A DNA stretch of 64,000 nucleotides from Paramacrobiotus metropolitanus (Eukaryota > Tardigrada > Eutardigrada > Parachela > Macrobiotidae), in assembly GCF_019649055.1 (NCBI RefSeq), contig NW_026570221.1, positions 3,162,001 to 3,226,000 of the forward strand, written 5' to 3'. Every line of letters begins with the position of its first letter. The stretch's first letter is position 1. The notes beneath the pieces are model-generated. The model was not told the DNA's origin and ran no database searches. It was given only the letters and a program-made list of their open reading frames with translations. Both the position numbers and the translations under genes were made by a program. This document shows, piece after piece, positions 1,891 to 39,840 of the stretch.

Positions 1891-2297
1891 AAATTGCAAC
1901 ATTTTCTGCTATTTCAGCGACTGGAAGCAACAACAAAAAAATGCTGAACCGAGTACAAAAGACAGTGTCCGCAAACGGTATTGTATGGAGTGAAAGGTTG
2001 TGAACGGTGTGGCCACCATATAATCTTTAGTCCGTGGTTGTAATGCTCAGTACCGCATTTCACTTTCCGCAAAGGTTGAGTGTCGTAATAAAGTTTTTCT
2101 TATCAAGTCACAAAACATTTAAACTATTTACCGTATGTTTCATTTGAAATTTTAATTGTTAGTTTACAGATAGATGATCCTTTTACGAATTTATTTATTT
2201 TGCATCATCTACATGTTTATGATGCTATCGATGCGAAGCAAAATAATTTACCCATGTCTAAATTAAGTTACGTACTATATATTAACTACCAAGGACG
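1891..2297. other. No gene seen
   Basis: AT-rich, without exons or repeats that I can support. Confidence 0.4.
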
Positions 2298-2389
2298 CGC
2301 AAAACACTACTAGGTAGTGTGTAACAAAAGAACGTCAAGGTGTTTACAAGGCATGGACAATAAGCAGGTTGCGGTATCAACGAAGGGGT

Positions 2390-3123
2390 ACGATTGACGA
2401 TAGAATTAACGACGCAGTACAATTAATGAACGTTTAAACGGCAGTACCCGTCGTTTTTAACGAAACGAAGGGGGTATCGTTTCGTTAATAACGACGTTGA
2501 AATTCAGTAATGAACGACTGGGCCCACATAGACCATTGAGCACGAGACTGCGTAGGCGAGACAATCTACCCAGTGAATTTCGGCCTGGGCATTCAATCCT
2601 GAGTTGCCCACTCGACTCGAATTTTCGAAAATCGTACAAGTCTCGACGCTTGCACTGCTGTCATTTATTTTTTTGCCAGCTACACTGAAAAGAAAATAAT
2701 TTGCTTTTTCGTAAATGTAAAAATTATTGCAAAAACTAATACTTTACTGTTGCAGAATGTGCTATAGCACCTCTGTAGCCTGTGCTGTGCATATTCACCA
2801 CCTTTCAAGTGCAACAGCGAGTCACGCATTCCAGAATGGAACGACAGTTCTTTATAACGTTTGCGCGAAAACTCAGATCGCATTTCCTTCTAACGTATTT
2901 GTACCACATAAAAACTTTGCATTTTGTTGTTTTTACGCTGGTAAACGAAATTGTTTTGATACTGGTACAAAATATTGAGCGGAGACTCTCTGATTCAATT
3001 ATAGTTCCTCACATTTATAGCAGGAGCAGTAAATTTTTTAGTTTATAACGCAACCTCCTATTCCAATCAACGGCACATTAAATTAACAACGCTAAAATCG
3101 TCGTTAATTTTGCCGTTAATCGC
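2390..3123. mobile_element. Non-autonomous element with inverted ends
   Basis: The left end (2390-2414) and the complement of the right end (3099-3123) share about 20 of 25 bases, including aattaacgacg. The element interrupts an otherwise duplicated block. It encodes nothing recognisable and carries a strong internal hairpin at 2449-2496. A MITE-like element fits, but I cannot define a target-site duplication or a superfamily. Confidence 0.45.
2449..2496. repeat. 20-bp hairpin, 8-nt loop
   Basis: Bases 2449-2468 (cgtcgtttttaacgaaacga) pair with 2477-2496, with a single mismatch, around the loop agggggta. It lies just inside the left end of the 2390-3123 element. Confidence 0.7.
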
Positions 3124-3570
3124 AAGGCCGTGCAAAACGCAACCTACTTAATGACCAATCATAACTGCACGAGAACTTTGTTTTGATTTTCTATGAACGA
3201 CCGTTACCCGGAAAACTTTCTTCTAGTGCAAAACACTACTGAGTAGGCAAAACGAAAGGCAATAAGTTGCAAAAAGAACCTCAAGGTGTTTACATTGCAT
3301 GGAAAATGGTGACCTGCACGGATCTTAATTACACGAGAAGTTTGTTTTGACTTTTTATGAACGACCATTACTCGGAAAACCTTGCATCTAGTGCAAACAA
3401 TGCCATAACTGTTTTTCTGTTATTCGAAAGGAGAATGACACAGCATATGCCTAAACCACGGTCGGAACTGTTGATGCACGTTAGGTTGTTAGTTGTCGTG
3501 TCGAACTGTTGTGAATGGCAACCGCACGCCTGGGGCATGCTGGGCCTATTCCGCGTTGGAATCAGTTGTA

Positions 3571-3578
3571 TATATAAA
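3571..3578 (+). promoter_or_regulatory. TATA box, small secreted gene copy 1
   Basis: TATATAAA about 96 bp upstream of the start codon at 3674. The surrounding block, from about 3480 to the start codon, is conserved in copy 2, where the same box sits at 8417-8424. Confidence 0.7.
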
Positions 3579-3673
3579 GATAACTGAAGCGCTTAGTGTT
3601 GTATCAATCAACTTGAAAGAGCACTGCTTTGTATTTGCTCGATTGCCATTTAACTCATTCATCTTCCGCAACA

Positions 3674-4233
3674 ATGCTGTCCGCCAAGTTCTGCCTGGTT
3701 TTGCTCGTCTGCACGGTACGGTTTTACTTGATTGTAACTTTGGATTTCTTAACACTTCGTAATACACCGCTGCTGATTTCCGCTACGTTCTGAAACATTT
3801 ATTAAATTTTAACCGCTATTATTATCAAATCATTACCGATTTTGAACTGTTTCTGAATCGCGTGCCGACTGGATAATTTTCACCTTTTCGCTTTTTCATT
3901 TGAAATTTTCTAAATTTAATTTTTTTTAGTGCTCCATTTTTTCTAACCTGTATAACTGTGCAGATTCTTAACGACAGATCTCCGGAATAATAATTAAGGC
4001 TGAAGTAATAAAAATCCAGAACCGTTAGCAATGTATGGTAAAGCGTCCCTGTGTTGCAGATGGTGGCCGCGACGGTGTCGGCCGGAAAGGGCCAACAGGG
4101 CGCCGCGTGCACGAGCGTCACCGACTGCGATCACAAGAACGGCTTTTTTTGTAAAATCGACTCCTTCGACCACAACGGTAAAAACAGGAAAGGCCACTGC
4201 GAGGTACAGCTGGACCATCGCCCACCTCATTAG
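3674..4233 (+). CDS. Small secreted four-Cys protein, copy 1
   Basis: Two exons, 3674-3715 and 4060-4233, joined in phase 0 (donor gtacgg, acceptor tgttgcag), encode 71 residues. Residues 1 to about 22 form a signal peptide (start MLSAKFCLVLLVCT, end VSA). The mature part is about 49 residues, rich in Lys, His and Asp, with four Cys in the pattern ACTSVTDC, FFC, GHC, which would allow two disulfides. I do not recognise the family; the GxxCxxxxDC start recalls several short Cys-rich secreted folds without matching one. The exons are GC-rich against AT-rich flanks and use strongly biased codons, which suggests high expression. The gene has a TATA box and poly(A) signals at 4406-4411 and 4418-4423. 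An identical protein is made by the copy at 8520. Confidence 0.75.
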
Positions 4234-4405
4234 CAGTCCCCATACCGAACATTCCCCGATAATTCTAAGGAAAGCCCTATGGTGCCTGGATTAACTACTG
4301 GAGCATCGCTGTGCTGATATAAATCAGACCGCTTTCATTGTACAAACTTACGCTCAACACATAACCGTATTTTCCGGTATATTTTCCTTGCAATGGATTT
4401 GCTGG

Positions 4406-4423
4406 AATAAACTGACGAATAAA
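4406..4423 (+). terminator. Two poly(A) signals, copy 1
   Basis: AATAAA at 4406-4411 and again at 4418-4423, about 175-190 bp after the stop of the small secreted gene. Copy 2 has AATAAA at the corresponding place, 9284-9289. Confidence 0.6.
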
Positions 4424-4621
4424 AGTGTACGCCCTATTAAACTGAAGCAAACATATAACACCGTTATAAAATTATTTTCACCAACATACGGATTATGTTA
4501 TCACTTCATGCATATAGAGAGCGCAAAATGTTAAATTACAGTAGCTTGAGCAAGCAAGCAAAAACACCTGAGAGACTACGATTAAAGTGTGGTTCGTCCA
4601 GATACATGCCGGGGCACACTG

Positions 4622-5390
4622 AGAGGCAGCATCGTTAGTTTTCCGCAATGATGACCTTAACAAAGCCCGCCTTCTTGCTCAGTCTAAACCAGAAGCTGGC
4701 ATCTGGTTAAACGCGTTGCCCTCCGCTCATAGTGGCAACCTCGTGGACGACGACACTCTTAAAATCTCAGTTGGCCTGAGATTGGGAGTGGCGATATGCG
4801 AACCGCACGAATGTTTGAAGTGTCATAAGCACGTTGATAAGTACGGACACCACGGTCTTTCGTGCGCATTTTCCGCAGGTAGACACCCGCGACATGGCGA
4901 ACTGAACAGCATTGTGTGCCGCTCTCTAGTGTCAGCTGGAATCCCTGCGAAGCTAGAGCCCCGCGGAACGTCACATACTTCCGAACGACGCCCTGACGGC
5001 TGCACAACCTTTGCCTGGCAGAGAGGGATGTGTTTAGCGTGGGATGTCACTTGCGTGGATACTGTTGCGCCTTCCCACATTAAATCTACGGCGGCAAACG
5101 CAGGCGCAGCTGCATTGGAAGCGGAAGAAAAAAAGGCGCAGCTGTATGCGTACTTGTTCGGCAGGTATATCTTTGCTCCGATAGCTTTTGAAACAATGGG
5201 CCCTTGGGGACCGGCCGCCATCGCCATCATCAAAGAATTGGGCAAACGACTAGAACAGCAGACAGGGGAGAAGCGTTCCCATGAATTTCTACGTCAAAGA
5301 CTGTCGTTGGCGATTCAGCGGGGGAACGCGGCCTCAGTTCTGGGAACAATGGAAGGAGCAGAAAAGTTAAACGAAGTTTTAATGTTGTAA
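4622..5390 (+). mobile_element. Retroelement 3' end: zinc knuckle plus restriction-like nuclease region
   Basis: An open frame from just after a stop at about 4619 to the stop at 5388-5390 encodes the C-terminal part of a polyprotein seen in many invertebrate retroelements. The order is a lead-in with WLNALPS, a CCHC-like zinc knuckle (ECLKCHKHVD, then HHGLSC, then GRHPRH), an RPDG motif, and LAWDVTCVDT. RPD and WDvT fit a PD-(D/E)xK restriction-like endonuclease as in R2-like non-LTR elements. The tail ends in QRLSLAIQRGNAASVLGT. No reverse transcriptase precedes it, so this is a 5'-truncated insertion. It has no signal of being used by the host. A second, inverted, broken copy lies at 5989-6540. 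The exact clade is uncertain. Confidence 0.65.
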
Positions 5391-5734
5391 AATTGTGATG
5401 TTTTTTTATTATGTAACAATACGATGTACCACAGGTGAATAAAGAGAAGTATCGTTAGTTAATGTTTGATACTTGTAGACGGCTTTCGAACACTAGATAA
5501 AGTGATGCAGTCATCAGCCAAATTAAGTAGACCATGATCAAAGCGCATTTTATTTCATAGTAACCAGATCGACATGTGCTAGAGCGAATATATTATACCG
5601 TGGTAACAAGATCGAATAGAGAAAGATGAACCCTGATACGCTGCAGTAGTGGGTACTGGGTAATTAAGCCAGCGATGGCTGAGATGCAATTAATTGAATT
5701 ACCTCTGATTGGAATCCAACAGCGGTTTCCTCTA
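5391..5734. other. No gene seen
   Basis: Follows the retroelement stop. A GAATAAAG poly(A)-like signal lies near 5438. Nothing else can be supported. Confidence 0.4.
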
Positions 5735-5815
5735 GCGGCTTGCCGGCGCAAAAGATACCGGCATTTGCTATTGTTTTACTCCCCTGTTGAAGAAAGTGAT
5801 ACAAATTCAACAGTG
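5735..5815. repeat. Left edge of duplicated segment (copy 2)
   Basis: Matches bases 1-80 (see that entry). It marks the start of the second copy of the segment, which ends near 9395. Confidence 0.7.
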
Positions 5816-5988
5816 GGTTAGCGTTTGCAAACTTCATCTATTTACACGAAATCTATACATACAAACACGTGACGTCACGGCTGAACCCACGAGGCAGCGA
5901 TTCGCTTCCGCGCAAATTTCAGTTTTCATTTTAATTCTTGATAACACATGTATCAATAAAAGAAAACCAATACTAGCAAGCGAAAAAG

Positions 5989-6540
5989 CTACACTTTATA
6001 ACATCCAGATGTCATTAAGCTTTCCGCTTCACCAATTGTGCCCATAATTGACGCCGCATTGCCTCGCTGCATCTCCAATGAGAGACGCTGTCGGAGAAAT
6101 TCGTGCGAGCGTTTTTCTCCGGTGTGGTCCCGCAGGCGCTTTGCTAGATCCTTGGTGAAGGCGATAGCCGACGGACCCCACGCCCCCATTGTTTCGAAAG
6201 CTATTGGGGCGAAGATGTATCGACCATTCAGATACGAATAAAACCTGGATTTCTTTTCTTCTGCTTGGATAGCCGCCGCTCCCGCATTTGTCGAAGTACA
6301 CTTAACATGGGAAGCAGCAACAGTATCGACGCATGTGACATCCCATGCTAAGCACATTCCCCTTTTCCACGCGAAAGTTGTACAGCCGTCCGGACGTCGT
6401 TCACTCGTGTGAAAGGTGCCGCGTGGTTCAAGTTAGCCGGAATACCAGCCGCGGCGAAGGCGCGGCAACAGTGCTGTTGAGAGCACCGTGACGCGGGTGC
6501 CTACCGGCCGAGAAAGGGCATGATAGGCCGCGCAAATTAG
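5989..6540 (-). mobile_element. Inverted, frameshifted copy of the retroelement 3' end
   Basis: On the minus strand, 6357-5989 reads as the same WDVTCVDT to QRGNAAS region as the plus-strand element, with many substitutions. Upstream, up to about 6540, the zinc-knuckle segment (CPFSAGRHPRHGALNS) and HTSERRPDGCTTFAW can still be read, but in different frames. At least two frameshifts break it between NST and the RPDG motif. It sits inside copy 2 of the segmental duplication and has no counterpart at that place in copy 1, so it inserted after the duplication or was lost from copy 1. Confidence 0.65.
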
Positions 6541-25299: not shown

Positions 25300-28200
25300 T
25301 CAAGGATTGCCCTCGCCACGCTCCAGCCAAAAGGTCTTCATGTTGCCCACGCCCTGCAAAAAGAGGCAGTGCCCGCTGTATCGCCTTTTTTCGACAATAT
25401 GCCCATAGCGTTTATTTATTATCGCTAAAAAGTGAAAAAATTGTCCTTTGTCCATACAAATAGCGAATGTTTTAGGCTGCAAAAGCCACACAGCTGCTCG
25501 TTATGCGACTATGTATGGAAACTGAATATGAGAACGCGCCATAGTTTTGTCGTCTTCAAAAACTACTGCGTGCTGCTTAGTGCCTACCCTCACAAAGGTC
25601 ATCCCGCGCGGTATAACGCGTAGTGTCGGCCAGTTGCCGGCGTGTCGCGCTGTAGCTCCGCCGATCTGGATCCTCCGCGTCTCGGCACTGTAGGCCAATC
25701 TCGACGCCACATTAACGGTGGTACCAAACCTGTATTTCGCTTAATCAATATTGTACATAGTACTGGTATTCGGTGTGCTTGCTGGGCAACGTACAAGCAG
25801 TATCGTGGCCTTTTATTGCCGACTACACCGGCCGCACAAGGTCCTGTGTAAAAGGTTATTATCTGGTTTCATCAAGTAAAATAATGATTAAAACGATGAA
25901 CGGTCGAGTGTTAACAAATGAAACCTGAATGCACGCCGATTTTCAGCTGTAGTCCGCTGCCGTGGTCCAGTCGCGGAATGCACAGGAAGCACTGGCGTAA
26001 ATCCAACGCTAACCGGCAGATTTCCATGGCATGCCGGTTCCCATTGGCAGTCGGCAGACCGCTCGCCGTCTATTTCGAAACAGTGTACAATGTACAGCAT
26101 CACGCTGCGCATAAAATCATAATTCAAATACATAATACTGTTGCTGTCCTTTTGCCTTCTTAGAGTTTAGTTGTCTTGAATTTCTATGCTGTAATCAAAG
26201 AAAATTAGAAACTATAACGCACCACGTAACAGTCGCTGATCGTTTCCACTTTATACGCGTCGGCATTCTTCAGGCACCCGTCAAACATGGTGAAGATAAT
26301 GTTCAGCAGATGTACAATGTCGCCGGGCGACACGTTCGCACAGAATTCCGCAAAGCCCCAGACGATGGCGAACGATACCGAAGTCCGCTGGAAGAGCTCA
26401 GCCTGCACGGGAAGCCCACAGACCAACTGCTGCACTACAACTCTAACAAAAACCCTTCACATCAGTAATGAAGAGTGATCTTCATTTCCAGTAACCGTTT
26501 TTCTGTTTTCCTGGTTCTAGCCTGGTAAGGTCGCATTTGCGGAAAGTTTTAATTTTCGGTCATGTTGTTTATTTTCAACAGTGTTAGTTTACATATTTTT
26601 TCGTTTTTGTTTTCTGAAAGTTTTTTTTATTACCTTCAGTTGTCATTTTCTTACTACGTTTTTTTCGTTTTGTTAAGTTTCGGTCGATCAAAAAGCTGAA
26701 GTAATATAACTCAGTAATAATGTTGTACGTATCAGATGCATAGAAGGGTGTATTCACTTTTACTTATTTATTTGTCTTCTTTCATTGGTTCATTTTTTTT
26801 ACTTATTCACATGTTTGTCTTCATTCATTTATTCATTTTTGACGGTTTTAATTTGTTTATTAAACGTTTGAAATTCTTAATTGTATCATGTTATTTATTT
26901 TTTTACTAAAGAAATATTTATCAAAAAATACTTAATTGTTTCGTCTCCATTGGTAGAAAAAGCACTAGTACTACCATAAAATTACCCCATTATTAAAAAA
27001 ATTTATGCTTCCTACTTTGGTAGCATTTCGCGAAGGAGCTCCATACTCAGCGCCTGCTCACGGCGCAGCTCCAGTGTCCGTTCATGCACAATCTGCTCCA
27101 ACTTCCCGTTGTACGTTTCCATCTTCTTCAGCAGTGTTTCTATCAGTTTTTCATCCTGAACCAGCGTGATATCTCTATACACGGGAACCACTTCGCCGAT
27201 CCGGGGACGTTCGCTACCGTCGACGCTCTGGCACAGCGTAGCCAGCGCCCTTAGTCTGTCCACCATCACCAACTCGGTCAGCGGCGGTTTCACATTCTGC
27301 GGAAAATCTAGCGTCCAGTGAATTAATCCACCGATTGCGTACATATCGTGGTGCGGTAATGCGTGCTTCGTTAACATCCACGAAACGCGACACAGCAACA
27401 AGTAATCAACGAGCTCCGGCGCAATAAAGCGGCTGGTCGTAGTTTCGGCCGGGGAGTGCTCGAAATTAGCTGAGTTCTTCGTAATATCGTATAACCCGCA
27501 TTCTAGCTTGAGCGTAAAATGCCGGTCAATAAAGCAAGCGTTTGGTGATAAGTAACCGTGACGGAGAAATGGCGAGGCATGGATAGCCGACACACCCTAT
27601 TTTTTAAACAGTTAAATTATAAAAAGGTTATCGATGAAAAGGTTCCTCTTGCCTTCAAAAGGTCGTACAGCAGTGTTAGCCGCAACTCGGTATCGACACT
27701 GCTTTTTTCCATGAAGAAAGCCATAGTTCCTCGCGGCATAAATTCCGTCACAAAGATCCATGATGCTTTCCCATCCAAGATACCGATCGTGCGCACCAGG
27801 TTCTCAGATTTTACCGATCGCAGCTGCAAAAAAACTTCAGGCCTATAGTCATATTTTAACATTGGACAAAACCTTTTAAGAAACCAAGCATCCGAGCGTT
27901 TACTGTATGTAACCTGATGCAAACGCTGTTGTGCAAGCGTATCGCGCGCCACCGGCCGTAAAGCGGGGATTTCTTTGACAGCCACCTGCTGACCTTTGCA
28001 AAAATATGCGCGTCGTTGGCTGGACTGCATTGTCATCAGTCCACTGCGTCCGTATTGTTCGTGCTCGGCATTCTGCAAAGAAATCATTGACTGTCAGTGC
28101 ACTATATAAAACTACTCGTTTGTAGTTTATCTTAACGGCGCCTATTCCAGCGCACCTTTACTACTTCGCTCGCTCCTAGGGGTACGAATTCCAGCGAATT

Positions 28201-31013
28201 CCACGCAACGATTTTGGAGATGGTGTGCTGCAAGATAGGCAAGCGCTTCGTTCCTCCAGAGTATGATGTGTATGTACATAAGTATTGAGAAATAAGCAAG
28301 CAGCAGAAAAGCAGCTTGCAATAAATAAGCTGATAATGAAATGCGCAGATAAGCAGATTGTAATAAATAAACAGATTTCATTTCAGTAGTGGTTATTTAT
28401 GATTTTCGTACCGTTGCGACGCCGTAGAGTTGACAAGTAACCGCAGCGCTATCCAGATGCCACCAGTTACGATTTAAGAACGCTCGTTTCCGTATCTGCC
28501 TACATCAAAAGCGTTTCTACCCCATCGCAACACCGGAGTACAGCGGACTAGAGCATAAAGCATGGAACTGTTACCAAATTCGGATAACGAGTAAAAGTAG
28601 TAATCCACCAAGAGCCAGTATGACGAGCATCAGCAGATTGCGTTTGGATTTCACTTCCTCTGCATCGCTACATTGTCAGTAAATTCAGGATAATTACAGA
28701 TGAACCCTGCTTTACCCAAACAGATGCCGGCATCTCCGGAATATCCACACGCGGGAACATTGCTTGGTGGGCGATTATCCGACATCCGCCACGTAAAGCT
28801 GCGATTAGCCACGAGCGCCATCTGCAGACCGTAATGCTTGGACACGACCTAAGCAAACGCGGTAATTTTTCCGAGGAACGGAAGGTGCTAATTTTTCATA
28901 AAGTCATAACTGAGTTTTCACCTGAAAGGATTCAGTCGAAGCATTATATGCCTTAGTGCAGTACGGCGTCCGCCGCATTCCATCGTTCCCAATATAGACC
29001 GTTGTTCCCGGAAACCGAAATGTTCGGTTGTAGAATTTTGCGGCCATCTGCTTACCCGAATACGCTCCACCGTCATTCGGCATATTTTCCAGGAAAACCT
29101 TGTCCGGAATAATATTATGTAATAATTTCTGATACTGTATATGTTTTACTCAACAACCATAGAGAATGGTCTGGACTCCAAGTGATCATTACAGCAAACA
29201 CAGCTTTTACCTGTGCTAAGGACTTCACCGCGAAATACGCGGCCATCGTCATTGGGTTTGGCTGTTTATGCAAAAAGCATCAATTAGTGATTCTTTCTGT
29301 TGAACAGTACACGGATACAAGCTTCCATCATACTTCTTCCTCTGCGTCGTAGAGAGCATTATAGCGCGCAACTCCCCGCTCCCGGATCAGCCGCATGACA
29401 GCCAGCATATCCCTGTTCGTGCCGTTTTCACAATCGCCGGTAATTTGCAACAGCGATGGGAATGCATTTCTGGCAATCTACATGCGCCGGAAAGCACAAT
29501 TAATTAACTATCACTATCCGCGTGATTACAGACAGTTAGCGTTAAGATGATGAGCGCGCATACCATGTCGTAGCCGTCGCCCAGGGTGGGCGTCAAGATG
29601 CCCCAACGACGCACGCTCCTGAACGGTTCTCCCATAATATACACCTGATAAAACAGCAAACAAAAGCTACAAGTACAACAGAAGATTGATGCAAGGGTGG
29701 ACGCATTACTTACGTACTCCGCATTAGTCATTTGCAGACGATCGGCTACAATCTGTAACAAAAAAATAATCTTTTCCCGGAGTCCCCCATAATAACAAGA
29801 TACGTGACTGTACCAAGAACATTCGGACGATTTTCGCCGGGAATAGTAAGCACACAACTGCAATTAGCAAAATATTATCAAACTGGCGAAACTAAATTAG
29901 CGAGCGGACCAAATCGATAGTGCGTACTTCGACTTATGGGTTTAACGCGCAGGAGCATTTCCTCGTAAGGAACCACACCGGTGCTGTTGGCTTGGAGAAA
30001 CAGGAAATTATACTGATTGGCTTTCCCGGGCGAAATCTGCCGGAGAATGACTTTGAGTTTCTCCTGAAACATGGCTTGTAGCGGATTCAGGACGCCGTTG
30101 CTGTCGTGCAGTACCACGATATTGGTCCAACCGAAATGGTCGAACAGCGAAACGAAGGTGGTGCTGAGGGGGACCGCGTCACCTGGCGTGAACGACACTA
30201 CGGTTGGGTACAGAAGCGGATTGTTGCCGTTCAGTGTCGTTCCCCTAAGAAAACAGAACTGGCAAGCAGGAAACCAGCTTTAGAAACGGATGTTACTTAC
30301 ACTAAGAGAATATTCCATTCACGGGCAAGGATTCGTAATTCGGCGTTTTCCTCGCAACCTATAATCAATGCAGAAAAAGAAAAATTTAAGCATGCCTCAA
30401 AATAAATTAAACATAAATTAGAATAAAATAAACAGAAAAGAAGATGAGGAGAAATAAATAAATTGTTCACAAAACTATCGAAGAATATTCAGGAAAATGG
30501 TTCTTCAAAATTCTTCCTCAATTATAGAAATAACTATTTTTCGTTGGCAGTGAAAAAACAGAAGACCGAATTTTGGTAAGTGTCAAACAAAATAAAAAAT
30601 CACGTTTACTGCCTTACTAATAATTTTTGGCGAAAACTGAAAAAAAAAGCCGTTTGGAACTTTTTAAATTGGCCTCTTTTTTCCAAAAATACGACAGCAA
30701 CAAGCTTACCGCTAAGCGACAAAACCAACGTTCCTTTTCCGCTCCATTTCGTGTAATAATATTCAGGTACCATATACCAGTTCTTAATCAGATCCTCACA
30801 GGCCACCAAATCCGTCCGCGTCAACAACACCAGCGTCATGTTAATCCGCCCGTCGGCGTTGACTTCATCGACGGCCACCTGAAAGGCCGGCGCGGTGTAT
30901 GGAATCCCGGGGAAGAAGTTCCGACTGTTGACCATAAAACTCAATATCGTTATGTTGATAGAAACATCCATGGTGAATGGAACGCTACTTCCGCAGGGAC
31001 TGCATGTGAACTG
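25300..31013 (-). CDS. Receptor guanylate cyclase, altered catalytic centre; signal exon not found
   Basis: Eighteen exons in phase: 31013-30710, 30358-30301, 30244-29947, 29752-29714, 29644-29564, 29477-29334, 29261-29211, 29134-28922, 28848-28716, 28659-28575, 28499-28412, 28072-27653, 27596-27016, 26442-26223, 26069-25925, 25843-25795, 25729-25588, 25353-25300; about 1034 residues plus a missing signal exon. Order: ANF-type ligand-binding ectodomain (1-440; TAPAFQVAVDEVN, NRTFRF), one TM (445-468), kinase-homology domain (about 500-770; VAVKEI, HGYLSPN), dimerisation coiled coil (HERTLEL to MLPK), cyclase domain (860-1034). Family members make cGMP on peptide binding. Here FSDIVGF reads FAIVWGF and GDTVN reads GTTVN, so one metal-binding Asp is lost, while KVETISDCY keeps the second. 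It may be inactive or act as a partner subunit. The donor after CTGCGC (gttaaa) is weak. Confidence 0.8.
26443..27015. other. Intron of the cyclase gene
   Basis: About 573 bp, T-rich on the plus strand with repeated ttcatt/tttattcat words. No nested gene seen. Confidence 0.55.
27597..27652 (-). other. 56-bp GC-AG intron in the cyclase gene
   Basis: The exon ending LLYDLLK is followed by GCAAGAG rather than GT, and the next exon (GVSAIH, the family GMxYLH site) begins after aaaaaatag. Joining them restores the conserved kinase-homology sequence in phase, and no GT donor does so. GC donors after AAG are a known minor class. Confidence 0.65.
28100..28390. repeat. Short degenerate repeats in a cyclase intron
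   Basis: Between 28270 and 28385 the words aataagc, gcagat/gcagaa and aataaata recur several times (aaataagcaagcagcagaaaag-type units). This gives the appearance of a spurious 79-codon frame rich in Tyr, Leu and Ala. It lies within the intron 28073-28411. Confidence 0.4.
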
Positions 31014-32821
31014 CTGCGTTTTTATCGGTCATCGTGAGATTAACAGCTGCGGCAGTATGCTTGCGTGGCAAAGCAGGAACTCCTTCCTGGAAGATAAGCC
31101 AGCAGACGCATCACTGTTGTTTCCTTGGATAATTACAGAGCACGCCAGTAAGTCTCAGAAGAGAATAATTAACTAGGGATGAGGGTGCATAAATGTCCCA
31201 GATGCCGGCATATGTAGTTAATTGATTACAGGGATTACCTCGGCATTTTCTTAAGTTCCGTTCAGCTGCATTATGCATATAGTGCATTACTGCACGGTAC
31301 AGCTAAACACACGCATCGTACTCCTCGACTGTACGCAATAACTTAGGTAGCCAGGCTTAGAATAATTATTGTGTTTATTCCTCTCATTTTGTCATGGCTG
31401 GATGTTGCGAGCATCGGATTCGCTCCTTAACCGCGTCATATTGTTGTGAAAAGGGACAACAAGCTACCGTGGAAGATGTAGGCGGGCGTTGGAAAAGTTC
31501 TATTGAGTTAAGACATGCTGCCCGCTTTCTTGATTCCATGTTCTGCTTAGTCGAGACATCCTACTGTTGTTTGAGGATTGAATGCCATCGTCCCGGTGTT
31601 GAATGCGAAACGGAGCTTTGTTTCTCTTTGCCATTCCAAAGAGGATTTCGAATAACATCGCTCACAATATTTTTCATTCAGCTAAAAGTCAACCAGTACT
31701 CAGGGAATACAGTGGAAACTATGAGAATATTCTGTACTCCCCTATCAAAGGTTTTACGTGATCAATTTTGTATCCGTATCATTACAAATTTGATTGACGG
31801 ATTCACATAAAAATGGACTGATTTTATATTGGTTGGTGGTGATGTGGTAAAATGGTCCAGCAGGTGTACACCGTACCGTCTGTAGGTCACTAAGAAATCA
31901 ACATTCCAAGTGACGTGACGTAATAGGTAAATTTTCCAATTTGGATTTGCGTTGACAATTGATGGTACGGTCAATAGCGCAGTTGCAAGCATATTCAATC
32001 TGCTTACACCGCATATATGTACTTCGATATACTTTGCATCACTAACGCTTGTGCTATAATTATGACACTGCAGAAAAGTACTCAATAGCCACATATACTG
32101 TATTTTCCTGCAAACAAAAAAGACAAATTTCGACAAGTAAATATTATAACGACTGAGACAGCCTATTCCAGAGCAAAGTACACAGTATCACGGTAAAAAA
32201 TCAGCACAGTAAAATAATGTTGGAACAAGCACGTGGGAAACGCAACAGCTAATTTTATTCTTCAGTTGCGGTTCACGTAGCAGCGCGCTGGATGCGCTAA
32301 TAATACAGGTGAGAGCATCATATGTAAAATACTGTATACCGTTCAACGATCCGTGCAACCGGCGTTTGTTTGTCGCTGGCCAGTCACCGTACAAACAGCA
32401 TGTCAATTTGTTTATTCAATTGTATACGGTTCGTGACGCTTTGTACCCTAAATTATATTTTACTGAATGAGTCCAAAGCATTGAACCGCGCAATCAGTCA
32501 AATAACGGGGCGTGTCTAGTTCCAGTGAGGTAAATAATCAGTAATCCATTTAGCTTGAAGCAAAATGTAATTTTGACACAGCCCGGATGAGCCCGGAAAG
32601 CGTACATCGTAATTAATGAAAACCGGTTGTCATTGTCCCTAAGAACCGGACATAAGAATGCGTATGCCGTTGTTTCACGCAACAAGCCGTTATATTGCCT
32701 GCAGGCGATAACTTTTCAGTATCGTGTAGCGATACATAAGCAGACAGCAGCCGGTATGATCGGCATATTGCAGTGAAAGGTGTGGTAACGTTTATCGTTG
32801 ATAGTACAGCGTCTGATCGCG
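31014..32821. other. Divergent spacer between cyclase (-) and tetraspanin (+)
   Basis: About 1.8 kb that should contain the promoters of both genes and the missing cyclase signal exon. One candidate is a minus ATG at 31992 that opens a signal-like stretch (MLATALLTVPSIVNA), with a phase-0 GTACAC donor near 31865. The 138-codon plus frame at 31394-31810 has no support. Confidence 0.35.
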
Positions 32822-35800
32822 ATGGCTGACGAGGAAACAGAAAAATTTCTGTCCGAGGACACACCAAAATTTCCCGACGAAACACTGCAATCGACAGAGG
32901 GAAAACGGGAAAAATTTCTCCGTGTATGGCGCTACGTGGCGATATGCAGCAGTTTTTTGTCGATTGGCACGTTCATCGTTGGATGTTTTATTGTGGTAAG
33001 TACCGCTGAATCTAGTGATCTGTAAAACTCTGAAGATGTACGAGTAATTCCAATAAATTTATCGATAATTTGTTAACGGATCCGCAATAATCTATTTGCA
33101 AGTTTTACGAACTCTATCTAAATTCCTGCGGGGTTCCGAGAAAAATACTTTGAAGTGAAATTATTTCTTGTCAGCGTTGCCCACCAAAGATCGACCGTCC
33201 AAATCGTTATTCATTCCAATACGGTACCAGTGTGCTGTAACAGCAAAGCTGTAAAAAGGTCGGGTTATAGTACCGAGTACCCGAAACGTTTGGTGCCAAC
33301 CGACGGGTTTTAACTTTTTTGTACATTTTAAATTTTCTGTTACAACCGATTTTGTTTGCATGAGCAGTTTTTACGGATGTACTGTACTGTATATAAACAA
33401 ATTATCTAGATGCACAAAAACATCGAAAACGAATCATTTTACGAAGCCACTGGATTAGAGTACAGTACGATGTGTATGGCCTAAGGATACGCATAGACCA
33501 ATCAATAAATGCTTTTTTCTTTATTAAGTTTGATAAATCTCAAATGAACTTACTGGAAATTTTGTGGATCCTGGTGGAGAAAAGGTTTTTATGTTTTGTT
33601 GCGTTTCGTTGTGAAGAAAAAGTTTTTTTGTTATAAACTGCGGTTGTCGGCGCTGAGAGCAGTCTGCGCCAAACCGCCATTCGCCAGCGTAAACTGGTTG
33701 TTTCAGATCGAAGTGCAGCAGTTCTACAACATTGCTTACCCGTTGGCGGCGCAGAGTGGATACACGGAGGATCTGTATGTCCGCTTCTTGGACGAATGCA
33801 GCCATATCGGATATGCACTGATTGTAGCCGGAGTAGTTAGCGTCTTCTTCGGTGTTGCCAGTTTTGTCGCTTACAAGAAGAAATTGTTGGAAACACACCC
33901 GAAGACCTGCACCCTGCTGGTGAGCATATTGCGTTCCCATCCAGCAGATTGTAAAATTGTCACCTTACATGTCGACTTTAGGCAGTCGTCTTCATCGTCG
34001 GCGTTCTTGTGGCTGAAGCAGCATGCGGCTTTTTACTCCTACAGAAGATGGATGATAAGCAGCCCTCGCGGGAGTTAGCCGCGTTAAAGGACCACTACGC
34101 ATACCAACCCACGGAACTGACCGGAGACGACGCGGTGATCATCCTACCGGCACGCTCTAACGCCACTATGGAAGCCATACCAGAGTTTACGCTACGGAAA
34201 ACCATAATTTTGAATGCTCTTCAAATGATGGTATGCAGGCATAATCCTGGCTAAATGATAAAATCATTCTGTTGTACTCTGTACATGTGTCATGTGGTCA
34301 TTCAGATATATAAGTCCAGTAAATAATTTTTTTTATATGAACCATGAACCTATCAGAAAATATTGAATTATTAAAGTATTTCGAAATATCAATAGTGTGC
34401 GTGTACAGCTGGATTGTTGTGGAACCGAATTCGGCTACGAAGACCTGTACGGTTCGTTGTACTATGGAGATACCTTCCCGTTGTTCCCGCCGCCGGTCTT
34501 CTGCTGCCGCTATAAGGATCCGGTTAGCCGCACTCTCGCGGATAGGAACTGCTATTTCGATGCATACCGCAACTCGCAATCGACCAAATTCCAGCACGTA
34601 CGTCCATGTCTTGTTGCGTTCAGCGTCTCGTTGATGATGTGCAATGCGGGAACTCTGTATACAGGGCTGCGTCAAAGCTGTCACGGAGTACCGACACACC
34701 AAATTTCCCATCATGTTAATTGTGATCTTTGGGGTGATCCTTCTGAAGGTAAGGCTAATACATTTCGATTCGGCGCGACTGCTTACCGCCACCGCATCAC
34801 GACATTCCAGCTTTAAAAAAGTTTTGGTTTGTATAGGTCATCGTGTACACGGTGAAGCTGGCAACCAAGTGGTCACTCTCCGGCAAGGTAAGGATTATTC
34901 GACAGGCAAAAACTTTGGAAATAAACTCGCATTACGCCTACAACGCAATGTCTTCTACGCCGACAGTCCTTGAACTCTTTTCTACGTATTAAATATCCGG
35001 CGTAGTGGATTGCGTGAACATAAACGCAAGTACACTGTCGCAATGTTTTACTGTAGGCTTGGTACAATGCGCAAAGGGAATGCACGAACGCCGCAAAACG
35101 TATTGCGCAGATGAATGTGGACCAGTTGTTGCTCAATACGAAAGACCGCAAGGACACACATGCCGAACTTATGGCACAACTGCAGGAAAAATGCCGAGTA
35201 CGTAATTTACCGTATTTGCGTTATCTGCGTTTTCGTGTGACTTCTGTTCGGTTTACGGTATTTGAAAGAAATGCTTATTTGACTTTTATTTGACATATTT
35301 GCTTATTATTCGGCATTACGACAGGCTCTAACCGATCGCGTGGATTTAATTGTAAAGCACCTAAAGGATCGCGACCCGGAAGAGCTGAGTAATGACTACT
35401 CGGAACTCCCGGAAGCCACGCTAGATCTCATCGACCATTCGAAACGCTGTATTGCCCGCATCGCGCAGTTGGACCTTTTCAAGGCACTGCAGTTATTTAA
35501 TTATCAGTCCTCCGAACAGCTGATCTGTGCTTTGCGGAAGATGCAGAAATGCTGTCAGCGTATTAGCAAGAGTCCGCCCACAGATGGCGTGCGTACTGTT
35601 CACTTGATGCTTTCTGTATTGTACGTTTCAAATGCCGATAAAGTTTAATTTTGCTTGCATTCCGTAGGAAGCATTTCCGCCTAAAGACATCGATCGTATT
35701 ATGAAAGGCGTCCTCTTGTCGTACAATCACTGCCGACAAGCGTCCCTGGAAGCCGCCACACTGACGACATTAGAGCGGCTATCACGCTACGCGGAGGATG

Positions 35801-38378
35801 TCGTGCAAACAGGTGGCGCTCTGCTGGACAGCTTGAATTCCGCTGCACCGGATTATGGTGCCATGCAGGAAGATGCTCAGAAATTGCAGAAAGTCGCGCA
35901 AAGAATTGGTAACGTGCCTGATAACCAATACCCTAATTGCACCTACACTTAAAACACCGAATTTACCCGCATATACAGTAGTGAGTGGTTCGTGTAAGGA
36001 ATTGGTTTAAAATCAACGCGAGTACAGCACCGTCTTCGCAAAAGGCTCATTTCATATTACTGCTGTTTACAAAGCTGCATAAAATTATTCTTAAAAAAAG
36101 GCGATACGATACGTCTTCCTATATATATGAATTATTGGGCAAAAGCTGTTAATTTGGCCAAAGGGCGCAAAGGGGTCGTTCTACCACTTGAAATGATTCA
36201 AACTTAGGCTTTAAAAAAGAATCAACACTGTTAGCACCGCCCGACATTTTATGACACATATTGGAAGTGGCCAAAATACCCGCAGCATTGCAATTTTCTT
36301 TAACAACAGCCAAGAATAACAACAACAGCAGGTCTTCATACTGCGTTAATCAGATAATACTGCTTCTTACAATGCTGTATTTCAGTTTTTAAGAAGCATC
36401 GAATTTCTGGGAGAAATGTTCATTCTGCGTTTTAATGCGATAACCAATTTGTTTGTAGGCAAATACTTCGCTACAAACACCATTATGGGTTGCGATGTCC
36501 AGTCCTGTCGTCAGGAAGAATCCCAGACCGTATTGTCCGATAAAATGTTGGACATACGAGAATCTCTGCAGAAGTTTCTGTATCACGCCGCCCAACTAAC
36601 TGTCAAGCACAGACATAAGGACCCGAAGCGGATGCTAAAACACGGAAAAGCTCTTCCTGCTGTGCAGCAGGACGTCGTGAAGGTTGTTAAAGGACTGTGG
36701 GAGGCCTTCCAGAGCAACGTGCCAGGCGTGATGGACCGCAGCGACCTGATGTTCGACGTAAACAGAATGCTTAATAAGGAATGGTCCCGCCTAACTGCCC
36801 TGGCGGACCCAGCGCGACCGTTGGCCGAGTTCTCGGTCGTTCTTTTTGACGTCTCACAGGTACAAACCAACAGAACTTCAAGAAAATTTCAGACACCAAA
36901 AAAGCTTTTTGTAATCGGAAAGCCTAACAAACCATCAGAAACTAAAAAATTTCACAAAGCGGAAAAACTTAAAAACCTTAAGAACCGTAAGAAGCACTTT
37001 GAAGAAACCTAGAGACCTGGGAATAAGAAAACCTAAAAATCTCTTACGAAATTTAAGACGTTTGGTTTTCACTGCTACAGTTCAAAACGGCTCTCGACAA
37101 CATAGCCGTTGCTGTCACCAAGGACAAGCTGGGGACCACCGGAACGCTGCACACGCTGGGGAAGTACCTCATCGAACTGGACAGCCATCGCCGCTTCCTC
37201 CAGTTGGAGACGTGCGGCTGTGCGTCCCTGGCGGTGAAGCCGGAAGATTCACGTCACTTCCTAGACTGTTTGTGGAGAATCCTCGATCAGTCGGCGTTTT
37301 TACTGGAGCAGTGCGGCTTGTTCGTCGACGCGTGTCATAAGGGCAGTGATATCAAAACAATTCGTGATGTCATTAGAGAACACACGAAAGTGATGAAAGA
37401 AGCGCAGCTGTCCGCTCTACAAGCGCTACATGAGAAACTGTTGCGGAAGAATGGCTACCGGATTATACATAAACCGGCGCAGAGAGAGGATAATGCAGCA
37501 AACCAACCAGTAAGAAAACAGCCAAATATTTTTGCGTTTACATGATTCACCTAATATGGGTTCCCATAGCGAACTGCCGCAGAAATATTCGCAAATTCTC
37601 CGTGGCACAAGATGATAAAAAAACTACCAAAAGAGGTCTTCAAACCTTACGCCAGAAACGTACGAAGCGCAAGCACTTCCGAAACAGCAAACAACAGCGC
37701 CAGAAATTCCATCACTTCGGTTGACGAAAGCGTGATCGATATAGATGAGATCACGATGCCACAGATTCGAGAGGCTTTGACGGAGGTTGACGAGACCTTG
37801 CGAAAATTTCGAGCGTCAAACGGTACGAACGTTGCACCTAGTCGAGAGTTCGCCGTTGAGCTGCTGTTGAAGGAGATTGCCACTTTCCGTGGTCATGTAA
37901 AGGAAGCGGTCGCCGCCGGGAAATCAGCGAACATGGTAGGGTTTCTTCCAGAACGTCATTAAGGGCAACGCTGCATAATAACGGGTTTTAATGTTTTCAG
38001 GATGACGTAGCGTTCTTTGGAGGGACCGGCGCGAGGCGGTTATTAACCGCGTGCCAAGAAGCCGCAGTGAATCCCCACTGGAAACCTGAAGTGCAGAAAG
38101 AGATCCTGCGATCCGGAGAGGAAGCCCTGAAGAGCTACCGATCGCTGCTTGTGTATATCGACAAAGTGGGCGATCGCAGTTATTAACTTTTCAAAATAAA
38201 TGCTTGACATACATGCGTTTTTTTGCAGCGATTCCGGAGTACGGACAACCGCGCAGATTTACAAAAAATTAGTTATTTGCATTTATCACTGGAGCAGATT
38301 CTTCAGCGCATCGAAAAAGTTCTGAGAAGCAACAGTACGGATGCCCATCCGAACAGTATCCCTAGAACGCACAAATAA
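32822..38378 (+). CDS. Tetraspanin with long cytoplasmic helical extension (probable single gene)
   Basis: Exons 32822-32995, 33707-33919, 33982-34230, 34409-34597, 34665-34748, 34837-34887 give a tetraspanin: TM1 35-58, small loop, TM2 93-115, TM3 130-151, large loop with CCG (215-217), VFCC, NC and GC, TM4 289-303. The last exon ends with a strong donor (AAG GTAAGG). The next acceptor (tactgtag, 35056) joins in phase to 35057-35197, 35325-35588, 35668-35908, 36459-36859, 37081-37509, 37570-37935, 38001-38165, 38229-38378. Total 1038 residues. Residues 321-1038 are charged and helix-like, with several Cys, no signal peptide, no TM and no family I recognise. Ordinary tetraspanin tails are about 10-20 residues. 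Alternative: two genes, the first ending at 34992 by reading through the donor, the second starting at ATG 35111. Confidence 0.7.
32996..33706. other. Intron 1 of the tetraspanin gene
   Basis: About 711 bp. No nested gene is visible; the 138-codon minus frame is a shadow of exon 2. Confidence 0.6.
35909..36458. other. Intron in the helical part
   Basis: About 550 bp, AT-rich. It is a phase-1 intron, which breaks the otherwise uniform phase-0 pattern of this gene. Confidence 0.6.
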
Positions 38379-38743
38379 AACTTATGTTTTCATATGTCCG
38401 GCCAATAATTAACTTTATGTGTGATATTGTTGACATGTGACAGAGCATCCGCAAAGCGTCGCTTAAGGGACAGTTTTTGCGCATCAGTACAAAAATCAAA
38501 ACCAGAAAAAAAACACAGAACCGTTAACTTCGTAGCTGATCATTTATCGCACCAATTAGTATGTCAAACTCTGCTGCATTTATCTATCTCTTTTCTGCAA
38601 CCGGCACATGCGTCCGGGACTCTGGTTTATGATCCGTGAGAACTGCAGCATTAGAAAGGTCATCGTGTGATGTATCCCAGTTAAATTAGTGGTTGCACGG
38701 TTCACGGCAAGACCGCAAAGGCTCCATGCGAAAAATGTTACAG
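38379..38743. other. 3' flank of the helical gene
   Basis: An AATAAA overlaps the stop codon (38374-38379). Otherwise nothing is supported before the exon relic. Confidence 0.4.
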
Positions 38744-39190
38744 TGGCTAAGGGTTCTCGCAGACTTTGCCGCAGTCATCACCAATAAGCAAAGCGAGGCT
38801 ACAAGACCTTTGTATGAGCTGGATAAGTACCTCACTGAACCAGAATGTCGTCGCCGATTTTTGCAGCTGGAAACGTGCGGCCTAACTGTGGACCTGGCTG
38901 ATGGAAGTGGCCTGTTGGATGGTTTGCGGAAGATAATCGAGTAGTCTGTGTTGCTGTTGAAGAGCTGTGGCTCGTTCATGGAAGCCTCAAATAAATGACG
39001 CAAATGTACGGATGCAAATCCAGCACGCAATCTCATCAAGGAAGGCACGACGGTGATGAAAGTACACCTAACCGCCCTTCAAGTGCTGCACGAGGAACTG
39101 CTGCAGAATCATCGCTATCGAGCTATTTCACGACTGGCACCTAACGACACGAGCGTTGCGAATCAGCCGGTTACAGAATTAATAGTTTAA
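38744..39190 (+). pseudogene. Dead duplicate of a helical-region exon
   Basis: This stretch matches the exon at 37081-37509 along its whole length: RRRFLQLETCGL against HRRFLQLETCGC, LLLKSCGSF against LLEQCGLF, TTVMKVHLTALQVLHEELL against TKVMKEAQLSALQALHEKLL, and VANQPV at the end. An acceptor-like tgttacag precedes it at the same place. In-frame stops interrupt it at 38942-38944 and near 38996, and the following exons are absent. It is a relic of a tandem duplication of this gene's 3' half, lying about 370 bp after its stop. Confidence 0.75.
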
Positions 39191-39840
39191 GTATTTCCAT
39201 CGGTTGCTAGTTTTCACCAAATAATAATAAAACTCCATGAACATAAATTACGCTATCGTTTCCTTTGATATTCCTGGGGGTTATTTTCAAGCCAACATGT
39301 TCAACTAAGTGCAATCCGCTTGCAGGCAGTGCGTATTTTAGATAATACGCATCTGATGAGAAACAAAAACAAGAATTCATCAGTAAAGTTTGATTGTAAG
39401 TTTCGTAACAGCAACTCTTAGTCATTGTTGTAATGAGGGTCTCGAATCGAGAATAACTTGTTTCTTTTGCAACTAACATGTAAGATTATGCCGGCACGTT
39501 TTCACCAAATAAAGCAAGAGTGGCTCGGATAGTTTAAAAACTGTAGCGATTCTAAAACTACGGAAAATGTTTTTACAGGTTTTCTTGCGATGCACTCAAA
39601 TAGCCGTTTTTATATAATTTTCTACATTTTTTTACACCGTGCAATATGTAATTACAACGAGCAAATGATTTAGAAGTTCAACAGATTTACGAAATTTTGA
39701 AATCATAAGTTCCTGGCCTTTGTAATTTACGAAAAACTTTCAGTCTTTATCCGTCTTGATAGCCGTAATTCATTACGGAGAAAGCATAACAAAATTAGTC
39801 TGAAGGACGCAAGCATAATTTGTTTAAAAAAGGATCAAGA
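39191..39840. other. No gene seen
   Basis: AT-rich intergenic sequence; open frames are short and unsupported. Confidence 0.4.

Follow-up and report, generated by a model that had tools for sequence, protein, structure and literature searches.

By the usual view, tetraspanins work by bringing other proteins together, integrins included, and talin connects integrins to actin. A locus in the tardigrade Paramacrobiotus metropolitanus raises the question of whether parts of both kinds of protein can be joined in a single polypeptide chain. The locus lies in a stretch of 64,000 nucleotides (contig NW_026570221.1, positions 3,162,001 to 3,226,000, assembly GCF_019649055.1; henceforth termed the window), in which an earlier annotation made from the letters alone, the original prediction, had described a tetraspanin gene that apparently runs on, through a further splice, into a large helical protein. 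Here, we find that this locus is probably a single gene, encoding a tetraspanin whose cytoplasmic C-terminus would run into a helical segment derived from the talin rod, with parts that resemble the talin regions R7–R9 and R12. For comparison with other loci, denoted below by C and a number, we searched the genome of the same animal, an assembly of 169.8 Mb in 533 contigs.

Rebuilt from the sequence, the gene comprises 14 exons (Table 1); every one of its 13 introns has GT/AG borders, and the frame stays open over 1038 residues, which exactly reproduces the exon structure first put forward, including its eight downstream exons in phase. The predicted product consists of a tetraspanin of 320 residues (exons 1–6) and a helical tail of 718 residues (exons 7–14), and its start ATG at 32822 is matched by the MAEEES of a relative at C97. 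The first half matches the Pfam model Tetraspanin (PF00335) with E 1.3e-14 and 54.8 bits (cut-off 32.1). Exactly four segments in the whole protein reach a mean hydropathy of at least 1.6, all of them within the first 309 residues, and the CCG and PVFCC motifs and further cysteines of the large loop are invariant in six paralogues (C215, C216, G217; C244, C245; C260; C277).

Table 1. Positions of the putative fused gene, of a partial copy of its rod and of the kinase-bearing relative at C97 (window coordinates unless a contig is given; TM, transmembrane segment).
Feature	Position	Strand	Remarks
Tetraspanin half, exons 1–6	32822-32995, 33707-33919, 33982-34230, 34409-34597, 34665-34748, 34837-34887	+	320 residues, four TM segments, introns all phase 0
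Junction intron	34888-35056	+	169 bp, phase 0, after TM4; read unspliced, stop at 34990-34992
Exon 7, first rod exon	35057-35197	+	18 conserved codons ahead of the first ATG (35111)
Exons 8–11, resembling talin R7–R9	35325-35588, 35668-35908, 36459-36859, 37081-37509	+	Matches to talin-1 in the PDB and, co-linearly, to exons of the genome's own talin
Exons 12–14, linker and part resembling talin R12	37570-37935, 38001-38165, 38229-38378	+	Matches to Talin_IBS2B, talin-1 and an own talin exon; TAA 38376-38378
Degenerate fragment copied from rod exon 11, no tetraspanin	38740-39240 (C1:3200741-3201241)	+	Three stops, 42% protein identity to rod 349-513
Tetraspanin seemingly spliced to a protein kinase	C97:289000-298999, local 2097-6120		HGDLKPAN catalytic loop; kinase exon without usable ATG

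At the junction of the two halves, the donor AAG/GTAAGG at 34888 scores 5.5, joint top among the 13 donors of the gene, against a 99% quantile of 3.7 for random GTs in the window, which bears out its original description as strong. The acceptor ahead of 35057 scores 1.85, with a 90% quantile of 1.6 for random AGs. The match of phase across the junction, also claimed at the outset, holds, yet carries little weight: because 12 of the 13 introns of the gene are in phase 0, we do not count it as evidence.

The order of a tetraspanin followed by a rod repeats at two further loci, C104 plus and C104 minus, and C164 is probably a further case. Searches of the assembly with the rods of the window and of C104 plus, in which the best candidates only were scored, returned convincing tails only behind the tetraspanins of the window, C104 plus and C104 minus, together with the degenerate fragment in the window. 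Two weaker rod matches lie at C55 and C94 (E 0.09 and 0.8, respectively). Among the candidates scored, a standalone rod gene elsewhere was rejected; a weak match at C1:3817064 (E 0.014) sits in a region judged by eye to hold retrotransposon-like open reading frames (ORFs). At C164, the spliced-profile score of 42.3 compares with 31.0–38.5 for 12 block shuffles and 24.3–31.3 for five control stretches.

An alternative to a fusion would be two adjacent genes duplicated as a block, an ordinary tetraspanin that ends at 34992 and a rod gene that starts from the ATG at 35111. Such an arrangement would make sense of the stop in the unspliced frame, of the ATTAAA beside this stop and of the ATG itself, which is codon 19 of the first tail exon at C104 minus as well as in the window. 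It is at odds, however, with the codons that precede this ATG. The 18 codons of the window (AWYNAQRECTNAAKRIAQ) and of C104 minus (AWRYAQSICSRTAKCLAD) agree in 8 of 18 residues and reach a BLOSUM score of 38, whereas the maximum among 1251 AG-anchored control windows is 17; shuffling gives p 3e-5, and the two stretches differ 8, 3 and 13 times at codon positions 1, 2 and 3, respectively. By this comparison, which was run after the similarity had already been noticed and takes an unselected pair as its null, the 18 codons are conserved as protein between the two loci. In the first tail exon of C104 plus and of C164 there is no in-frame ATG at all, and none occurs in its frame as far back as the stop that precedes it. 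With a separate start ahead of 35111, these ATG-less exons and the conserved codons would stay unexplained, and we disfavour such a start. The gaps of 66–377 bp that correspond to the joining introns (window 169, C104 minus 185, C104 plus 377, C97 349 and C164 66 bp) would also offer scant space to a 3' end plus promoter, and the kinase exon at C97, discussed below, has no ATG ahead of codon 79. We regard two separate genes as very improbable.

A variant with a shared transcript meets similar difficulties. In an operon-like arrangement, one pre-mRNA would be cut in two, with a spliced leader added to the rod mRNA at the acceptor that precedes 35057, which would suit the short intergenic distance and the good acceptor immediately before the rod exon. 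The 18 conserved codons would then be untranslated, however, and the rods of C104 plus and C164 would be left without a start codon; moreover, a tardigrade spliced leader was not met in those parts of the literature on tardigrade trans-splicing that a limited look covered (PMC7854359). Its probability seems to us very small. A fusion of tetraspanin and rod is well supported from the DNA, and one gene that combines a membrane organiser with a large cytoplasmic scaffold, as first proposed, appears to be the best reading of it in view of the recurring order, the ATG-less exons and the conserved codons.

Five related tetraspanins with plain ends, at C16 and in a tandem of four on C2, also have the intron inside TM4, and all carry a stop codon in their last exon, exon 6, some 10–15 residues past TM4 as judged by eye; in the window gene, this exon would end instead in a phase-0 donor that is spliced to the rod. 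As a wider control set, 17 of the 38 tetraspanin matches of the genome were fetched and their ends judged by eye. A stop after TM4 could be read in 11 of the 17 but not in the other six; the tails of these 11 measure about 10 to 125 residues. The hidden Markov model (HMM) of the rod found nothing convincing in 868 ORFs of these control tetraspanins, with 1–2 kb of downstream sequence covered (best E 1.6). In one tetraspanin, at C2:3662887-3664700, the frame stays open for about 125 residues beyond TM4.

For the helical part, no family had been recognised, and a profile search of residues 321–1038 had been proposed. This search found talin, and the part belongs with the talin rod by Pfam, the PDB and the genome's own talin. 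Taken alone, the tail matches Talin_IBS2B in Pfam (E 3.7e-6, 27.3 bits, barely above the cut-off of 27), and both of its matches in the PDB are talin-1 (E 3.4e-4). With E 10 as the limit, a profile built from three paralogous tails draws eight PDB sequences; the top five are talin-1 fragments (E 1.3e-10 to 1.1e-8) that we take, by the usual numbering, to be R7–R9. The talin gene of the genome itself was located on C28, and the tail profile matches three adjacent ORFs of it co-linearly, with E 1.5e-7, 0.0011 and 0.0019 among the ORFs of that gene and 5.5e-6, 0.039 and 0.067 when 4419 ORFs from the window and the fetched loci are searched. For the C-terminal part of the tail, talin-1 fragments come up with E 1.9e-4 and full-length talin-1, over chain positions 2183–2254, with E 1.6e-3; in the own talin, this part matches an ORF further along the gene (E 0.0065).

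Since helix formers make up 53% of the tail, we weighed the possibility that it is a helical bundle unrelated to talin and matched through composition. The profile also draws two designed coiled coils (E 0.0089 and 0.52) and, within the same range, one unrelated protein, and the Talin_IBS2B match clears its cut-off by no more than 0.3 bit. Chance resemblance of this kind would, however, have to account for a PDB ranking in which the top five matches are all talin-1 in aligned order, for own talin exons matched in the same order and for separate searches that reach two distinct talin regions, and we consider it highly unlikely. By these matches, the tail is derived from the talin rod but is not itself a talin; the FERM model is not among the Pfam matches of the window protein up to E 10.

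Several observations weigh against a single gene with a talin-derived tail or weaken the case for it. In the window, the last donor is weak (AAA/GTGGGC at 38166, score 1.4), and without this last splice the protein would stop in exon 13 at the TAA 38184-38186. The frame upstream of the ATG at 35111, described in the original prediction as open, is indeed so, but for 18 codons only, as a TAG (35054-35056) lies within the acceptor. The R12-like end was found in the window copy only. The sequence searches recognised no binding site in the rod: in Pfam, the window protein has no actin-binding domain above cut-off, I/LWEQ appears only below threshold and at the wrong end (tail residues 10–70, E 0.038, 14.5 versus 27.5 bits), and the vinculin-binding-site model is not in the listed matches, single helices being easily missed. 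At C104 minus, the donor is poor (CAC/GTCAGA, score 0.3), and the unspliced reading meets a stop after two codons. The tail match at C164 is weak (HMM E 0.0016) with nothing talin-like in Pfam or PDB searches, and we accepted this locus as a full talin-rod member in part only. The paralogue models, obtained with a spliced aligner, are approximate, and the borders at C104 plus and C164 were partly set by hand; this leaves the frame of the post-junction exon unchanged at both loci, the other borders being approximate. Lastly, an AATAAA (34920) and an ATTAAA (34988) lie inside the junction intron of the window.

Because of these two hexamers, a short isoform might exist beside the long fusion, a tetraspanin that retains the junction intron and ends, after 34 extra residues, at the stop 34990-34992. 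The ATTAAA overlaps this stop and the AATAAA is 70 bases ahead of it; against this, the other four loci have no polyadenylation-like hexamer in their junction introns, and such hexamers are frequent in AT-rich DNA. We hold the production of both forms to be rather unlikely. It would be compatible with the fusion, and its likelihood stands separately from those of the other readings.

For the fused gene as such, further context comes from C97, where the nearest tetraspanin relative of the window copy (59% identity) seems to carry a protein kinase in place of the rod. Exon 6 of this relative also has 51 nt and a strong donor (AAG/GTGAGA), with a phase-0 junction at the same place as in the window, and the kinase exon begins at the top-scoring acceptor within the next 350 bp. 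The kinase matches the Pkinase model in two pieces (E 8.9e-5, below cut-off, and 1.9e-24), the first ATG of its exon lying beyond the glycine-rich loop, and it shows similarity (E 2.4e-23) to the second domain in one of the double-kinase genes that C97 also carries. We also considered whether the C97 tetraspanin is nested in a kinase gene; queries with the first kinase gave no match over the 2.1 kb on the upstream side of the tetraspanin, and this option was rejected. Related kinases form a very large family throughout the genome, with at least 125 matches (110 of 781 candidates scored), and some of them are tandem double-kinase genes as judged by eye.

In a tree of the tetraspanin region from ten loci, a branch sets the five fused genes apart with support of 99/98, and C97 adjoins the window copy with 93/94, just below the star of the tree program; C104 minus carries a long-branch flag, and the root is not fixed by an outgroup. 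Because the tree pairs C97 with the window copy and both share the phase-0 junction, the simplest reading suggests an ancestor with a rod and one later swap of the rod for a kinase. With some reserve, we favour the view that the phase-0 intron after TM4 has served as a socket for cytoplasmic modules, in which the talin-derived rod would be ancestral and the C97 branch would have taken up a kinase related to the neighbouring double-kinase genes. Normally passive organisers would in this way have become self-contained adhesion scaffolds and receptor kinases.

As to how the fused protein might work, its tetraspanin part would place the molecule in tetraspanin-enriched microdomains of the membrane, together with adhesion receptors. 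Both termini of tetraspanins are cytoplasmic, and because of this topology the rod is predicted to form a fixed arm on the cytoplasmic face. Within talin, parts of the rod serve as binding sites for actin, for regulators and for the tails of integrins; the arm may retain some of these contacts, and we tentatively suggest, as a possibility somewhat short of an even chance, that it binds actin or talin partners. Covalent tethering would then replace FERM-dependent recruitment, that is, talin-like recruitment would be hard-wired without the FERM–integrin step. The form at C97 would act as a tetraspanin receptor kinase clustered by tetraspanin contacts.

If true, a chain with both parts would make it possible to ask, on a natural example, if tetraspanin domains can directly carry talin partners or cytoskeletal load, and the join would represent a new way of building an adhesion or signalling receptor. 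Rod and kinase forms together would be a case of exon shuffling at one intron that builds new membrane receptors in an animal. Neither a tetraspanin–talin nor a tetraspanin–kinase protein was found in the portions of the open-access literature available to us (including PMC9145152), which does not prove their absence. Elsewhere in the window, on the minus strand at 27015-31028, lie ORFs that, judged by eye, look like a receptor that combines a kinase-like domain with an extracellular part for ligand binding.

Set against known systems, the putative tetraspanin–kinase of C97 shares with the double-kinase genes of C97 a kinase like their second domain, whereas those genes have two kinase domains, and no tetraspanin was noticed among their ORFs of at least 55 residues over 8.5–9 kb each, no search aimed at it having been made. 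The tail of the window protein resembles talin-1 in R7–R9 and R12 and is co-linear with the own talin on C28, but no FERM head, R1–R6, R10–R11 or I/LWEQ was recognised in it, and unlike talin it would be covalently joined to a membrane protein. The window protein as a whole is like tetraspanins in its four TM segments, its CCG/PVFCC large loop and a Pfam score above cut-off, and differs from them in that about 725 residues would follow TM4 in place of the short cytoplasmic tail that is typical of, though not defining for, this family.

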